Below are positions 524 through 8,778 of a DNA stretch of 32,720 bases, in pieces. Origin of the DNA: an uncultured Bacilli bacterium (lineage in GTDB: Bacteria; Bacillota_I; Bacilli_A; RF39; UBA660); contig CALVJM010000005.1 of assembly GCA_944332155.1 (NCBI GenBank), positions 1-32,720 of the forward strand. The letters are read 5' to 3'. Made by a program: the position numbers and the translations under genes. Under the pieces are notes generated by a model. It saw only the letters and a list, made by a program, of their open reading frames with translations. It searched no databases and was not told where the DNA came from. Numbering within the stretch: the first letter of the stretch is position 1; every line of letters begins with the position of its first letter.

Positions 524-549
524 GGTTCTAATTATCAGAACCTTATTTT
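515..549. terminator. Bidirectional intrinsic terminator between convergent genes
   Basis: An 11-bp perfect stem (AATAAGGTTCT at 519-529 with AGAACCTTATT at 537-547) encloses a 7-nt loop. It is flanked by an A-run on the left and a T-run on the right, so it can terminate transcription in both directions. The stop codons of both flanking genes lie inside the stem. Confidence 0.8.
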
Positions 550-1310
550 AATTGCAATATTTTTTTCTGTAAAGACTTTTTGAGTTGATTGAGCTGTTCT
601 TCATCTATATTCATTATTTGAGCGATGGTTGAATAATCAATTTCTTGATTATTTTCAATATACTCCATCATTAACTTAATAAGTTGTTCCTCTGCTTCTG
701 TTTCATTAATCAAGTCTAATATATGATTAGATGAATTTAAGTCATTATATATTCCATCATAAGTTAATTTTCTTTCTTCATATTCGTTGAATGTTCTAGC
801 TGGGAAAATTTTGTTAAAAATGGTATAAATTAGCGATTTATACAAGTAATTGTATAATATTTTGGATAATATTTCTGAATCATCATCAAAGTTATATATT
901 ATATCCCCACAATTAGTTAATAACAAATCTAAAACAACACCTTTAATATCATCAATAAACAATTTGGGATATTTACTAAAAATTACTTTAGACACTAAAT
1001 CAACTATATTCACGATAAGTAATTGGTGATGATTAATCTGCTCTTTTGAAAGTGGCTTATGTTCTCCAATCCATAATGAATCCTTTTTTAATTTTTTTAA
1101 CAAAAAACTGTTTAAATTTAATGCTTCAAAAAAGTCCTTTATTTGTATTTTCAAATTTTGACATAAATGTATAACATCTTCATAACTATAAAACTTATTA
1201 TAATTGTTTGTTAGTAATAAATAGAATTTTAAATTTTCTTTCGAAAAGTTTTTAGTATCAAAAATATGACAAAGACTTTGATAATCTGTAAATATAACTC
1301 GTATAATCAA
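543..1310 (-). CDS. Hypothetical protein, possibly a divergent sigma-70-like factor
   Basis: The frame encodes 255 residues from a TTG whose first bases overlap the TGA of the upstream repeat gene (TTGA at 1310-1307). This implies translational coupling, or a former fusion. There is no ATG near the N-terminus, and the frame is closed by a stop at 1328-1326, so the start must lie in this short interval. Residues about 94-165 are helical and loosely match sigma region 2 in pattern (a DLVSKVIF helix, then FIDDIKGVVLDLLL, then YNFDDDSEILSKILYNYLYKSL). Residues about 200-255 contain EEQLIKLMMEYIE followed by a possible helix-turn-helix (DYSTIAQIMNIDEEQLNQLKK), like sigma region 4. These are weak resemblances read by eye. 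No transmembrane segment or enzyme motif is seen. Function is unknown; a DNA-binding role coupled to the repeat protein is an inference. Confidence 0.55.
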   Translation of the reverse strand: MIIRVIFTDYQSLCHIFDTKNFSKENLKFYLLLTNNYNKFYSYEDVIHLCQNLKIQIKDFFEALNLNSFLLKKLKKDSLWIGEHKPLSKEQINHHQLLIVNIVDLVSKVIFSKYPKLFIDDIKGVVLDLLLTNCGDIIYNFDDDSEILSKILYNYLYKSLIYTIFNKIFPARTFNEYEERKLTYDGIYNDLNSSNHILDLINETEAEEQLIKLMMEYIENNQEIDYSTIAQIMNIDEEQLNQLKKSLQKKILQLK

Positions 1311-2197
1311 CCAATCTCTATCGCTTTACCTTTGGCCAATATGGTTGGACATTGTTCGATTATTGATAAATCAATACCATTTATTTTTAAAGTCGAAACT
1401 ATTTTTTCAATCTCTAATGCTTTACCTTGGGCCAAAATGTAAGGGCATTGTTCGATTATTGATAAATAAATATCATTATTTTTTATAGTCGAAATTATTT
1501 TTTCAATCTCTATCGCTTTACCTTTGGCCAATATGGTTGGACATTGTTCGATTATTGATAAATAAATACCATTTATTTTTAAAGTCGAAATTATTTTTTC
1601 AATCTCTAATGCTTTACCTTGGGCCAAAATGTAAGGGCATTGTTCGATTATTGATAAAGGAATATCATTATTTTTTATAGTCGAAATTATTTTTTCAATT
1701 TCTGGCACTTTACCAAATGCCAAAATGGAAGGACATTGTTCGATTATTGATAAATCAATACCATTTATTTTTAAAGTCAAAATTATTTTTTCAATCTCTA
1801 ATGCTTTACCTTTGGCCAATATGGTTGGACATTGTTCGATTATTGATAAAGGAATATCATATTTTTTTAAAGTCAAAATTATTTTTTCAATCTCTATTTC
1901 TTTACCAAAGGCCAAAATGGAAGGACATTGTTCGATTATTGATAAATCAATACCATTTATTTTTAAAGTCAAAATTATTTTTTCAATCTCTATCGCTTTA
2001 CCAAAGGCCAATATGGTTGGGCATTGTTCGATTATTGATAAATCAAATTCATTATTTTTTAAAACTAATATAATTTTTTTGACTTCACAAACATTTTTTT
2101 GTTTTTTAATAGATTTTAATTTTACTATTTTTTGAATTGTTTTTTCAGAAATATTATAAGTTCTTAATATAGGTATTAACGTATGAACATCTATCAT
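1307..2197 (-). CDS. Tandem 32-residue helical-repeat protein (mTERF/TALE-like solenoid)
   Basis: The gene encodes 296 residues from ATG at 2197, preceded by a good ribosome site (GGGGAG, 5 nt from the ATG). After about 52 divergent N-terminal residues come eight in-frame repeats of 32 residues with core LSIIEQCPxILAxGKxxEIE followed by KIIxTLKxxxI. The last copy is cut after 20 residues and ends in a TGA that overlaps the next gene. A conserved Pro at repeat position 8 and Leu at 11, with alternating amphipathic helices, resemble the mTERF motif; the GKALE segment followed by a helix also recalls TALE repeats. Residues at positions 9 and 13 vary together from copy to copy, while the rest is almost invariant. 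No signal peptide or transmembrane segment is visible. Binding to nucleic acid is an inference from the repeat class. The N-terminal 50 residues contain a degenerate repeat (CEVKKIILVLKNNEFD). Confidence 0.8.
   Translation of the reverse strand: MIDVHTLIPILRTYNISEKTIQKIVKLKSIKKQKNVCEVKKIILVLKNNEFDLSIIEQCPTILAFGKAIEIEKIILTLKINGIDLSIIEQCPSILAFGKEIEIEKIILTLKKYDIPLSIIEQCPTILAKGKALEIEKIILTLKINGIDLSIIEQCPSILAFGKVPEIEKIISTIKNNDIPLSIIEQCPYILAQGKALEIEKIISTLKINGIYLSIIEQCPTILAKGKAIEIEKIISTIKNNDIYLSIIEQCPYILAQGKALEIEKIVSTLKINGIDLSIIEQCPTILAKGKAIEIG
1310..2041 (-). repeat. Eight tandem 96-bp coding repeats
   Basis: Units start (minus strand) at 2041, 1945, 1849, 1753, 1657, 1561, 1465 and 1369, exactly 96 bp apart; the eighth is truncated at 60 bp. 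Copies are nearly identical in DNA, for example the TTATCAATAATCGAACAATG core. Odd and even units differ in their C-terminal residues (INGI against NNDI or KYDI), giving a higher-order 192-bp period. The last two pairs (1658 downwards) are nearly identical, suggesting recent duplication. It is not a CRISPR because there are no unique spacers and the frame is open throughout. Confidence 0.95.
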
Positions 2198-2222
2198 ATT
2201 ATCTCCCCATTCAATATTTGTT

Positions 2223-4627: not shown

Positions 4628-5488
4628 TTATGAATCCTTTTCAGTTGTAGTGGTAGAATCTTCTGGAGTACTTGTTTCATTATCACTTTCCTCATCAGTG
4701 GATTCATTCGTATCAGTTGGATTTTGATCTTGAATTGTTTGTTCTTTTTTCTTAGAAACTGTTAAAGTGATAGTTTGATCACGATCGATTTTTTTATTCG
4801 CTTTAATACTTTGGTCTAAAACCATACCATCGGATGTATCACTTTCTTGATATTTTATTTTATAAGTAATGCCTTGTTCATTCAGAAACGTGCATGCACT
4901 TTCCATACTAAGACCTACAAAATCTGGAAGTGTTAAAGTATTATCTTCGATACCAACTGTAAGTTTAATCTTTTTATAATTCGATACCGTCTCACCTGCT
5001 TTAATACTTTGATCAAGAACGATACCAATTTCACTTTCATCCTCTACTACTTCCGTTTTTTCTGTGACACGAAATCCTGCATCTTCTAAAGTAGTCTTCG
5101 CATCTTCCAAGGTCATTCCCACAACATTTGGAACTTCTCTAACTTCGGCAGTATAAATGTGATAAGCAAAAATTCCAGCAGCTCCAGCCGCAACTACAAA
5201 GAGTAAGAACAATAAGAAAACCATAAATTTTTGTAATAAACTCATTTGTTTTACAACCACGACGTCATTCTTATCACGCTTATCTTTTCTTCTATTTCTA
5301 TCTTTTGCTTTTTCTTTTTTGGTTTTGGTAACCTTTTTATTTTTCGTTTTGTTTCTACCTTTATCTTTTTTGTTTTCCTCTGTTATTTTACGTTCGTAAG
5401 GTAAATCTAAAATGAAATCATAACCACAACGGCTACAAAAATGTGCCGTTTCATCATTTAATTGATGACAATTTGGACATTTTACCAT
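4628..5488 (-). CDS. Membrane protein with N-terminal zinc ribbon and two PASTA domains
   Basis: The 286-residue protein carries a zinc ribbon with Cys4, Cys7, Cys18 and Cys21. A very basic Lys/Arg linker covers about residues 34-80, and one transmembrane helix about 88-110. Two extracellular PASTA repeats follow, at about 117-178 (starting VPNVVGMTLEDAKTTL) and 186-248 (starting LPDFVGLSMESACTFL). The last 35 residues are Ser/Thr/Glu/Asp-rich and probably disordered. PASTA domains bind muropeptides or peptidoglycan and normally occur in Ser/Thr kinases or penicillin-binding proteins; here there is no kinase domain. The inferred role is sensing or attaching to the cell wall and signalling through the cytoplasmic zinc ribbon. 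The start is supported by GAGGAGG 6 nt upstream of the ATG. Confidence 0.88.
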   Translation of the reverse strand: MVKCPNCHQLNDETAHFCSRCGYDFILDLPYERKITEENKKDKGRNKTKNKKVTKTKKEKAKDRNRRKDKRDKNDVVVVKQMSLLQKFMVFLLFLLFVVAAGAAGIFAYHIYTAEVREVPNVVGMTLEDAKTTLEDAGFRVTEKTEVVEDESEIGIVLDQSIKAGETVSNYKKIKLTVGIEDNTLTLPDFVGLSMESACTFLNEQGITYKIKYQESDTSDGMVLDQSIKANKKIDRDQTITLTVSKKKEQTIQDQNPTDTNESTDEESDNETSTPEDSTTTTEKDS

Positions 5489-5543
5489 AAATACCTCCTC
5501 GTAAAGTCATACTATAACAAACAAATGTGAAATTTTTAAGAAA

Positions 5544-6368
5544 CTACTTTGGTTGATGAATGTATTCAAATAACGCGGATGGACGATGTCCACCTCCGGT
5601 CTTCATTTTATCTGTCTTACGTACTTTATTAGAAATCATACGACGAAAGGCAGGATCTAATAATTTTTTACCAAGAATAATTTCATATACTTGTTGTAAC
5701 TCTCCTAATGTAAAATATCTTGGCATCATATGAAAGACGATATCCGTATATTCGATTTTATTCTTTAAGCGTTCCATTCCCATAACAATCGTTAGGGCAT
5801 GATCAAACGCAAGACATTCGTTATTTACAATCTCATATTCATAATGTGCGGTTGTAATTTCTTTTAAGTGTTTTTTTACTTCAAAAGTTAATTGTTCTTC
5901 ACCGTTTTCTAAGAAAACTTTAATAGTATCTTCATCTTCAAGCGTATGAATGTGAAACCAAGAAGCATTCTGGGCAAGATTGTGATGAAGACGATTTTTA
6001 TCGACTAAGGACATATAAGCGGTACTAATGACACGCATACGAGGATCACGATCCACCGCACTAAAAGTATAAAGTTGTTCTAAATAAATATCTTCTAAGT
6101 TTGTCTCATCTTTTAAAATACGTTTAGATGCCTCATCTGTCGTTTCATCCATACGAATAAACCCTCCAGGCAGGCACCATTTTCCTTTAAAGGGATAAGT
6201 ATCTCTTTTAATCAGTAAGACACTAAAATACTTTTTATTTAATTTACGATAATTTTCTTGAACACCATCAGCAACACTAAATAATAGAATATCCGTTGTT
6301 AAAGATAGACGTTCAAATTGATTAGGATTGTAATGTTTTAAAAATTCTTCTTCACTTTTATATTCCAT
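5544..6368 (-). CDS. nrtR: NrtR: Nudix-related transcriptional regulator of NAD metabolism
   Basis: The 274-residue protein combines an N-terminal Nudix domain (about 22-165) with a C-terminal winged helix (about 195-265: YTDIVFHMMPRYFTLGELQQ, then FRRMISNKV, ending GGHRPSALFEY). This is the NrtR architecture. The Nudix box at 69-91 keeps GX5E but has RILKDETNL in place of REUxEExGU, so hydrolysis is probably lost and the domain senses a nucleotide such as ADP-ribose. This follows the known behaviour of NrtR proteins. The gene lies directly downstream of the NAD salvage genes and has its own promoter overlapping a palindrome like those at pncA and pncB. The stop codon is TAG. Confidence 0.93.
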   Translation of the reverse strand: MEYKSEEEFLKHYNPNQFERLSLTTDILLFSVADGVQENYRKLNKKYFSVLLIKRDTYPFKGKWCLPGGFIRMDETTDEASKRILKDETNLEDIYLEQLYTFSAVDRDPRMRVISTAYMSLVDKNRLHHNLAQNASWFHIHTLEDEDTIKVFLENGEEQLTFEVKKHLKEITTAHYEYEIVNNECLAFDHALTIVMGMERLKNKIEYTDIVFHMMPRYFTLGELQQVYEIILGKKLLDPAFRRMISNKVRKTDKMKTGGGHRPSALFEYIHQPK

Positions 6369-6390
6369 ACTACACCTCTTATTTCTAAAT

Positions 6391-6421
6391 TGATTATATC
6401 ACAAGAAGTCAAAAAAGTCAT
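6391..6421 (-). promoter_or_regulatory. nrtR promoter with overlapping candidate NrtR operator
   Basis: ATGACT (6421-6416) is spaced 17 bp from a perfect TATAAT (6398-6393). The -10 is embedded in TGATATAATCA (6401-6391), a palindrome with 4-bp arms that resembles the TGATATTAACA element at the pncA and pncB promoters. The arrangement suggests autoregulation. The -35 lies within the preceding terminator hairpin. Confidence 0.6.
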
Positions 6422-6433
6422 TTCTGACCTTTT
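6411..6433 (-). terminator. Intrinsic terminator after nadD
   Basis: The stem AAGGTCA pairs with TGACTTT around GAAA, followed by a short T-run, immediately after the nadD stop codon. It separates the NAD operon from the nrtR promoter, although read-through is possible. Confidence 0.65.
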
Positions 6434-6986
6434 ATCCATTTTGATATAAATGATTCGTTTTAATATATTGTTTGACACCCATAGGTAATCCTGAATAATC
6501 TTCTTGTTGTAATGATTTTCTAATTTTGGTAGAAGATAAAGAGTTGGAATTTATAGACAAAAACTCTACATGAGGAACGATTTGTTTTACCTCTTCTTTG
6601 GTATCTTGGTTTCGTAAAAGAACAAGAAAATGGGTATCAGGAATGAAAGAAGATGCATGTTCCCAAGTCCAAATCTCTTTAATATTATCACTACCACAAA
6701 TAAAATAAATTTGATCGTTGGGATACTTTTCTTTAAAGTAACGTAAGGTTTGATAAGTATAAACTTGTGAATTCTTATCTTCAATTGTCGATACTTCCAT
6801 TCGATCTTCTAAACAAAGTTTTAACATTTGAACACGATCTTCTAAGGCGATTAATTCGTCCTTTTGATAAGCATTCCCAACCGGTACAAAGATGACCTTA
6901 TCTACCATATTTAATGCATCTCTAGCGATATTGATGTGCATCTGATGTGGTGGATTAAAACTTCCTCCAAAAATTCCTATTTTCAT
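6432..6986 (-). CDS. nadD: Nicotinate-nucleotide adenylyltransferase
   Basis: NadD converts nicotinate mononucleotide plus ATP to deamido-NAD. The 184-residue protein has the nucleotidyltransferase signature at residues 4-20 (GIFGGSFNPPHQMHI, the HxxH of the HIGH-like motif). It also has FICGSDNIKEIWTWE and, near the C-terminus, SSTKIRKSL (the ISSTxIR motif). Length is close to the usual 190-210. The ATG overlaps the TGA of prs (ATGA), so it is coupled to it. It is the last gene of the NAD operon before a terminator. Confidence 0.93.
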   Translation of the reverse strand: MKIGIFGGSFNPPHQMHINIARDALNMVDKVIFVPVGNAYQKDELIALEDRVQMLKLCLEDRMEVSTIEDKNSQVYTYQTLRYFKEKYPNDQIYFICGSDNIKEIWTWEHASSFIPDTHFLVLLRNQDTKEEVKQIVPHVEFLSINSNSLSSTKIRKSLQQEDYSGLPMGVKQYIKTNHLYQNG

Positions 6987-8011
6987 TTTGTCACCTCCAA
7001 GGTTTGTAGGGAATCATGGCGTGATAAAGTGTCAATGACTTCGCCAATGACTCCTGAAAAATCTACCCTTTGACACCATTTTTGTTTTTTAATACGATCA
7101 GGAAGATAAGATAAATTAGTGGTATATAACTGATCAAATACGTGGTGGTGATACGCATCTTCAAAAGCTTTGGTACCTTCGGTAAAAAGAGCAAAGGTCG
7201 CACAGAGAACAATCTTTCGTGCCCCACGATTTCTTAACTCTTTGGCCACCTCAATCATAGATGTACCTGACGCAATCATATCATCTACCACAATCACATC
7301 TTTTCCTTTTACACTATTTCCTAAATAAACATGTTCGAGAATTGGATTTTTACCTTGTATTACTTGTGTTAAGTCACGACGTTTATAAAAGACACCGGTT
7401 TTAGAACCTAACATTTCCGCATAATGACGTGCTCTTTCCATTGCCCCCATATCTGGACTAATGACATAAGGGTGATGAATATGTTCTAGAGCATGAACCA
7501 TTGTTTTAGTAGGATAAATATTTTCAAAAGACATATTAGGTACGGCATTGGCTACATTAGGATCATGACAATCAAACGTTAGAATATTAGAAACACCTAA
7601 ACGTTCTAATTCTTGCAAAGCTAAGGCACAATCTAAAGATTCACGACCACGACGTTTGTGTTGACGAGATTGATATAATAAGGGCATAATCACCGTAATA
7701 CGTGATGCTTTCCCACTACAAGCAGAAATCACACGTTTTAAATCTTGATAGTGTTCATCAGGTGACATTTCATGTTCTTTTCCATACATAGAATAAGTCA
7801 TTCCATGATTACCAACATCCGTTAAAATATAAAGATCTTTATCACGAACACTATCTAAGATACGAACTTTCCCTTCTCCGTTTTGAAAGCGATTACAAAT
7901 AAGATTAATTTGTAGTGATTCTTCCACTTGATACTTTTCTTGTAAATAACGTTCTACTTTTGTCCCTAAAGCTTCACAGTTTGGCATAATGATTAAACCC
8001 AAATTTTTCAT
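6983..8011 (-). CDS. prs: Ribose-phosphate pyrophosphokinase (PRPP synthetase), divergent form
   Basis: The enzyme makes PRPP from ribose 5-phosphate and ATP. The 342-residue protein is somewhat longer than the usual 310-320. It shows the N-terminal domain with SRQHKRRGRESLDCALALQELE, the FDCHD segment, and the PRPP-binding loop VIVVDDMIASGTS. The last part, DQLYTTNLSYLP followed by a C-terminal helix, is also typical. Its place between nadD and nadE, together with pncB in the same operon, suggests that it supplies PRPP for nicotinate salvage. It could be a dedicated paralogue of a housekeeping prs elsewhere. Confidence 0.9.
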   Translation of the reverse strand: MKNLGLIIMPNCEALGTKVERYLQEKYQVEESLQINLICNRFQNGEGKVRILDSVRDKDLYILTDVGNHGMTYSMYGKEHEMSPDEHYQDLKRVISACSGKASRITVIMPLLYQSRQHKRRGRESLDCALALQELERLGVSNILTFDCHDPNVANAVPNMSFENIYPTKTMVHALEHIHHPYVISPDMGAMERARHYAEMLGSKTGVFYKRRDLTQVIQGKNPILEHVYLGNSVKGKDVIVVDDMIASGTSMIEVAKELRNRGARKIVLCATFALFTEGTKAFEDAYHHHVFDQLYTTNLSYLPDRIKKQKWCQRVDFSGVIGEVIDTLSRHDSLQTLEVTK

Positions 8012-8016
8012 GATAA

Positions 8017-8778
8017 CTACTCTCCTTTCTGATAAGTAGGAATATAAAACTTATGACGATTTTGTTCATGAAGTTTTTCGATTTTTTGACGAGTTTCTTC
8101 TTCTAATTGTTCTGGATTTTCCATATACTTGGCAATCTCCCTGTAAGTAACACCCAATTTTTCTTCATCACTATATTTTGATAGACCATCCGCAGGTGTT
8201 TTATATAATACTTTTTTAGGTACTTGTAATACTTCCCCAATTTGTAATACTTCTTCGACCGTTAAATCAGCTAGTACACTAATATCATGAACAGAATCAC
8301 CACCCTTTGTGAAGTATCCTACAAATAATTCACATTTATTACTTGTTCCAGCCACTAAATATGTTTTTTGATATACACTAGAATATAAAGCAGCTAAATA
8401 ATATAAACTAGCCATACGTAAGCGTGGTTTTAAGTTGATTCTACTATTTTCTTTTTGTTCATCCGTAAAAGTCCCAAGTAGATCTACTTCTTTTTCAAAT
8501 ACATCAAACGTATTCGTTAAATCAAGATTGTATAAAGGAAATCCATAATAATCACTAACTAATTTGGCATCCACTTGATCTTCTACTTTAGAGTGACAAG
8601 GTAACGTAACACCAATCACATTTTCTTTTCCTAAAGCTTTGGTAAATAGAGCTGCAACAACCCCACTATCTTTTCCACCACTAATTCCAATAATGGCTCC
8701 TCCTAAATTATTTTTTTTATAATAATCTTGAATGAACCCAATGATTCTTTCTGTTTCTTTTTTCGCATCAAATCTCAT
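8017..8778 (-). CDS. nadE: NH3-dependent NAD synthetase
   Basis: NadE amidates deamido-NAD to NAD with ammonia and ATP. The 253-residue protein has the PP-loop GISGGKDSGVVAALF at about 31-45, and later AGTSNKCELFVGYFTKGGDSVHDI and LYKTPADGLS, which are hallmarks of NadE. No glutaminase domain is present, so free ammonia is the donor. The ATG overlaps the TGA of the Nudix gene (ATGA at 8778-8775). The stop codon is TAG and is a natural end, which shows that TAG is a stop in this genome. Confidence 0.95.
   Translation of the reverse strand: MRFDAKKETERIIGFIQDYYKKNNLGGAIIGISGGKDSGVVAALFTKALGKENVIGVTLPCHSKVEDQVDAKLVSDYYGFPLYNLDLTNTFDVFEKEVDLLGTFTDEQKENSRINLKPRLRMASLYYLAALYSSVYQKTYLVAGTSNKCELFVGYFTKGGDSVHDISVLADLTVEEVLQIGEVLQVPKKVLYKTPADGLSKYSDEEKLGVTYREIAKYMENPEQLEEETRQKIEKLHEQNRHKFYIPTYQKGE

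Follow-up and report, generated by a model that had tools for sequence, protein, structure and literature searches.

A family of tandem-repeat proteins from Bacilli with two hypervariable positions per repeat and a predicted mTERF/TALE-like solenoid fold

Natural proteins that read nucleic acids with one repeat per unit are few, namely the TALE-like, PUF and PPR proteins. In TALE repeats, the hypervariable site immediately precedes the long helix, which has a conserved G-K-type start. To our knowledge, no hypervariable residue pair is known in the eukaryotic mTERFs. In one of these, MTERF1, the central helix has a conserved proline as its cap, and this residue lines the DNA major groove (PMC4705650). 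Hu et al. (2024, NAR, PMC11417379) described pTERF1 and pTERF2, prokaryotic mTERF-like tandem-repeat proteins from gut metagenome-assembled genomes (MAGs) of Bacillota. These pTERFs bind DNA sequence-specifically, pTERF1 with a Kd of 1.87 nM; two members bind different motifs, and the study derived no code. The DNA analyzed here (the window, a whole stretch of 32,720 nucleotides) is the entire contig G000:C5 of a 1.2-Mb draft genome of an uncultured Bacilli bacterium, and it carries an array of near-identical repeats.

The repeat array and the C-terminal reading frame

The features of the locus are as follows.

2203..2208, minus strand: GGGGAG, resembling a ribosome-binding site (Shine-Dalgarno-like), 5 nt 5' of the ATG, from sequence
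1307..2197, minus strand: repeat-array ORF, 296 aa, ATG start and TGA stop
2042..2197, minus strand: N-terminal cap, residues 1-52, helical, aligning with the N-terminus of the intact G004 relative
1946..2041, minus strand: repeat 1, T at position 9 and F at position 13
1850..1945, minus strand: repeat 2, S at 9 and F at 13
1754..1849, minus strand: repeat 3, T at 9 and K at 13
1658..1753, minus strand: repeat 4, S at 9 and F at 13
1562..1657, minus strand: repeat 5, Y at 9 and Q at 13
1466..1561, minus strand: repeat 6, T at 9 and K at 13
1370..1465, minus strand: repeat 7, Y at 9 and Q at 13
1310..1369, minus strand: repeat 8, T at 9 and K at 13, truncated after position 20
1307..1325, minus strand: break point, where the TGA of the repeat ORF overlaps the TTG of the C-terminal ORF, from comparison by eye
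543..1310, minus strand: C-terminal domain ORF, 255 aa, out of frame with the array, matching the C-terminal domain of the intact relative and ending in an HTH

A sequence-only reading of the window had described eight near-identical 32-residue repeats, with T, S, T, S, Y, T, Y, T at position 9 and F, F, K, F, Q, K, Q, K at position 13. Both residue series are exactly as described and seven of the repeats are complete, but the eighth stops at position 20. TRF reported a 96-bp tandem array at 1312-2063 (7.8 copies, score 1026), for which a 192-bp dimer period was better than the 96-bp monomer (91% vs 84% matches); thus, the repeats were copied as two-repeat blocks. The same reading had described the variation as concentrated at positions 9 and 13. 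This is correct, since residue-changing codon differences are most frequent there within the window array, at 0.76 of repeat pairs for either position. The variation is not confined to them, and positions 17, 28, 24 and 16 also vary (0.52-0.71). The proposed pairing of Y with Q and of S with F holds in the eight repeats, with a permutation p of 0.07, and could be explained by the duplication of repeats as dimers.

The ORF at 1307-2197(-) does not encode a whole protein but only the repeat part of a larger one, and the C-terminal domain sits in the next ORF. An intact relative from the same genus (G004, record JAETPN010000011; 765 aa) consists of an N-terminal cap, twelve 33-aa repeats and a C-terminal domain of about 275 aa, to which the window ORF 543-1310(-) is 27% identical (E 4e-22). 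Aligned by eye with this relative, the window sequence has lost some 18 codons at the break, along with the reading frame. Because the array and the C-terminal domain lie in different frames and are about 18 codons short, we read the window copy as split, and from the sequence it looks as if an out-of-frame deletion of about 50-55 nt at the array end caused this. Alternatively, the two parts may form a coupled pair of genes, or the repetitive region may be misassembled. In the genome G109, the array and the C-terminal domain are also in different frames (L032:3140-4909(+) and 4882-5610(+)); since this break is close to the junction in the window, the split may recur.

The C-terminal domain matched no Pfam or NCBIfam family and no credible PDB sequence family. 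In the model of an intact member with 11 repeats (L040), we assigned a part that resembles a winged HTH, a helical part and, at the end, an HTH. Likeness to ECF/sigma-70 region 4 is seen in the last 46 or so columns, which aligned with region 4 of the relatives' ECF sigma factors with P 4.5e-4 at a probability of 33% (hhalign), while a repeat control against the same profiles gave P 0.22. The TIGR02937 match was weak (E = 0.55), sigma profiles gave no match for region 2, and no family model was reached; the resemblance of the final HTH to sigma region 4 is suggestive only. Separately, the genome G011 contains two adjacent very long reading frames of 1211 and 921 aa (L209:1669-5301(+) and 5346-8108(+)) that contain complete-looking sigma-70 factors fused with extra helical-looking regions.

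Distribution, predicted fold and variable positions

With the intact protein as the query, matches were found in 11 of 386 genomes of the same bacterial family. A three-repeat profile matched 25 of 385 genomes of the order, all in this family and in 18 of 117 genera, the weaker ones being second-subfamily members (see below) or doubtful, and a C-terminal profile matched 16 of 376 genomes, the weakest marginally. Outside the bacterial family, the three-repeat profile gave only spurious matches at the order and class levels. The window protein itself as the query had no match in the first genome scan or the viral scan, and an alignment scan of viral contigs gave none. Among the rejected candidates, the match in G016 has six stops and is antisense to another gene, and the weak class-level matches in G682, G759 and G040 fall in proteins that appear to be a HAD-type hydrolase, an MgtE-like transporter and an ABC ATPase. 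L115-L118, with weak matches mostly in non-repeat proteins, were left out of the counts. Pfam and NCBIfam matches to DUF3945, FlhB, SAP, CPL3 and others were mutually inconsistent and were attributed to repeat composition.

The distribution is patchy across genomes of the bacterial family. The repeats are near-identical and of about 31-33 residues, array length ranges from 2 (L042) to 26 (L038) repeats, and several different arrays occur in single genomes (G250, in tandem; G287; G452). The named records are mostly MAGs of 'uncultured Bacilli bacterium' labelled Lapin, which we take to mean rabbit gut. Flanking genes vary from genus to genus; in one genus, the array gene sits between what are, judging from their sequences, presumably RNase J and FtsY. 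Arrays are often located at contig ends (G206:C101, G282:C60/C65, G395:C40, G521:C3), and therefore short-read assemblies probably undercount and truncate the family.

Other array types were also found, the repeat register between subfamilies being set by motif. Repeats of a second subfamily, for example EHPELFTS-x9-TLA-x13-SNIEKIQAIINSKEFK, vary at position 9 (T,Q,E,S,D) and position 13 (Y,E,K,Q,H,R,C,L), which are again among the most variable positions. Its members (L109:5233-7473(-), L110, L107, L108, L112, L113 and L036; motif HPELFTS[TQE][TV]LA[YHKQR]..) have an mTERF-like N-terminal part without the sigma-like domain, and possibly correspond to the published pTERF group. A third type, L106:5085-7559(+), encodes 825 aa with about 18-20 repeats (ITG[GS]VF[NKRLMS][KR]SAKEIEEIIEVC..), in which a single site varies strongly, at what looks like the corresponding position. 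Those members of other subfamilies whose sequences were followed to the end lack the C-terminal domain of the window family.

The sequence-only reading had likened the array to mTERF and TALE solenoids, and structure prediction bore this out. AlphaFold2 modelled the window ORF with pLDDT 92.5 and pTM 0.84 as a stacked solenoid with three helices per repeat (positions 2-6, 9-13 and 16-28). In a Foldseek search of the PDB, this model matched human MTERF1-DNA best (3n7q; prob 1.00, TMq 0.61) and also BurrH (4cj9; prob 1.00, TMq 0.59), with modest E-values (best, 1.9e-3), and the only credible matches were MTERF1-DNA, BurrH, TALEs, MTERF3 and MTERF4. The model of the intact L040 protein (pLDDT 84.7, pTM 0.57) matched MTERF1 as well as TALEs bound to DNA (TMt up to 0.55, prob 1.00). 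A fold search of BFVD gave no credible match. The repeat profile also matched designed PPR proteins in the PDB (E 1e-9), which we judged compositional because one long-helix motif was aligned over and over. If Pro8 is equivalent to the proline that lines the groove in MTERF1, then residue 9 and, one turn further along the short helix, residue 13 should face the groove, and we infer such exposure for both.

Homologues were checked for a variability bias at these two positions, and it was present both in nine arrays of the family and in the second subfamily. In the codon comparison of the nine arrays, positions 13 and 9 ranked first and second of 28 for residue-changing differences: the residue changed in 0.75 of repeat pairs at position 13 (silent, 0.02) and in 0.68 at position 9 (silent, 0.06). 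The residues found are C,E,F,H,I,K,Q,R,T,V,Y at position 13 and F,G,I,N,S,T,V,Y at position 9. C7, I10, L11, A12 and G14 are nearly invariant, and differences at positions 7, 12 and 14 are mainly silent. Other surface positions (5, 16 and 24) are also variable. Linked changes at 9 and 13, as proposed from the window repeats, were absent across the family (summed MI 69.2 vs 70.0 expected, p = 0.56); in the L038 array alone, the correlation had a p of 0.017. Two near-identical strains, L105 and L038, have 12 differences in 4520 bp. Six of these are inside repeat 6, where comparison of L105:4339-5074 with L038:6262-6997 shows N,V,E in L105 and T,Q,K in L038 at positions 9, 13 and 17. The repeat may have been replaced recently, or the difference may be an assembly artefact of the contig end, as L105 ends within the array.

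We also looked for a recognition code in 0.96 Mb of the genome that carries the 26-repeat L038 array, taking the site as a fixed function of repeat residues. The labels were 9 plus 13, 13 alone or 9 alone, in both directions with one base per repeat, and 9 plus 13 also with two bases per repeat. No 26-bp code-consistent site scored above shuffled labels after counting tests. The best case, position 9 in the forward direction, was equalled or exceeded by 14 of 600 shuffles and lay in an apparent repeated coding motif. This negative result is weak evidence, since the genome may lack the target, or the target may be imperfect or have another spacing.

Candidate function and rival explanations

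We consider that the family probably represents sequence-specific DNA-binding, transcription-linked proteins that are fold kin of mTERF, TALE and pTERF. Each 31-33-residue repeat would fold as three helices on the mTERF/TALE-like solenoid, with the conserved Pro8 capping the middle helix, a short one that spans residues 9-13. A helical turn separates the hypervariable residues 9 and 13, both of which would look into the groove, and repeat order would set the sequence that is read. In intact members, the C-terminal module of winged-HTH-like, helical and HTH parts would couple the bound site to transcription, and in the window copy the putative deletion would cut the array off from this module. 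DNA binding, reading with one repeat per unit and a transcriptional function are what we infer for the family. DNA binding fits with what has been shown for the related-looking pTERFs (PMC11417379) and with the proline that lines the groove in MTERF1 (PMC4705650), to which Pro8 would correspond. A stronger version, which we regard as possible but doubtful, is an independently evolved natural code, in which each mTERF-type repeat would read a single base or base step through residues 9 and 13. Block duplication would lengthen and re-order the arrays, and a sigma-like module would be tethered to them. If such a code exists, these bacteria have transcription factors that can be re-targeted by repeat shuffling.

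Other readings of the same repeats should be weighed. The solenoid might read single-stranded RNA by a PPR/PUF/OPR-like logic on an mTERF-type fold, and so control the stability or translation of mRNA. A constant helical repeat with hypervariable paired positions is equally the design of PPR and PUF proteins, the array gene adjoins the presumed RNase J in one genus, and designed PPR proteins are the best PDB sequence matches of the repeat profile, though apparently for compositional reasons. RNA is reported to be acted on by some eukaryotic mTERFs (PMC4005652). However, the structural matches are to the double-stranded DNA binders MTERF1, BurrH and TALE and not to PPR or PUF, and the similarly described pTERFs bind DNA (PMC11417379); RNA reading is unlikely in our estimation. 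Diversification of an exposed surface that binds proteins, for example against varying phage or competitor proteins, could account for the patchy distribution, the several arrays per genome (G250, G287, G452) and the residue-changing surface variation. We regard it as rather improbable, as the fold matches are to nucleic-acid binders only, the C-terminal module is HTH-like, and neither the window proteins nor the G004 relative matched defence families, L040 having two weak matches (E 1e-4 and 9e-4) inside its last repeats.

The out-of-frame halves of the window copy, the 18 or so codons lacking relative to the intact protein and the break in G109 at about the same junction might instead indicate a decaying pseudogene, with the array variation reflecting drift after loss of function. 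Such decay would concern at most the window copy, in which both halves are still long open frames; intact copies elsewhere keep the pattern at 9 and 13, and an assembly error in the repetitive region could produce the same split. We find decay very improbable as an explanation. Natural readers with one repeat per unit are few, and beside them the family offers arrays in which up to 26 near-identical repeats share two clearly marked variable positions on a predicted mTERF-type fold; it makes a readable code in prokaryotic mTERF-like proteins directly testable by swapping residues 9 and 13.

Comparison with known repeat proteins

Like the eukaryotic MTERF1, MTERF3 and MTERF4, the window family has three short predicted helices per motif of about 30-33 residues, with Pro8 and Leu11. 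However, the eukaryotic motifs are degenerate, whereas those of the window family are near-identical tandem copies. No match to the Pfam mTERF profile came from the window ORF, from the intact relative, from the nine other proteins scanned or from the C-terminal alignment. Under the mTERF rule of proline at 8 and hydrophobic residues at 11, 18 and 25 (PMC11417379), Pro8 and Leu11 are present, position 25 is mostly hydrophobic (T25/L26 in the window), and position 18 is not, a hydrophobic residue being found at 19 instead.

The window family shares with TALE, BurrH/Bat, STAR and MOrTL proteins near-identical repeats (31-33 aa vs 33-35 aa) with hypervariable residues on a constant scaffold, and as in TALE the hypervariable site comes just before a G-K-type start of the long helix. 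It differs from TALE in having three helices per repeat instead of two and variable positions 9 and 13 instead of the adjacent 12 and 13, and its residues (T/S/Y/N at 9; R/K/Q/H/E/F/Y/I/V at 13) depart from the TALE vocabulary. PDB searches with the protein or with the repeat profile showed no sequence similarity to TALE. As there was neither an mTERF profile match nor a TALE sequence match, we do not file the family under either name.

Tandem three-helix mTERF-like repeats, occurrence in Bacillota genomes from gut metagenomes and a DNA-binding solenoid (predicted here) are common to the window family and pTERF (PMC11417379). Published pTERF arrays have 3-11 repeats, compared with 2-26 in the window family, and neither a variable-residue code nor, in the section consulted, a sigma/HTH-like C-terminal domain is described for them. 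Furthermore, pTERF1 is reported to lack Pro8 and the hydrophobic residues at 11, 18 and 25, whereas the window family has those at 8, 11 and mostly 25. Compared by description and by fold, the window family looks like a second, more mTERF-like branch beside pTERF.
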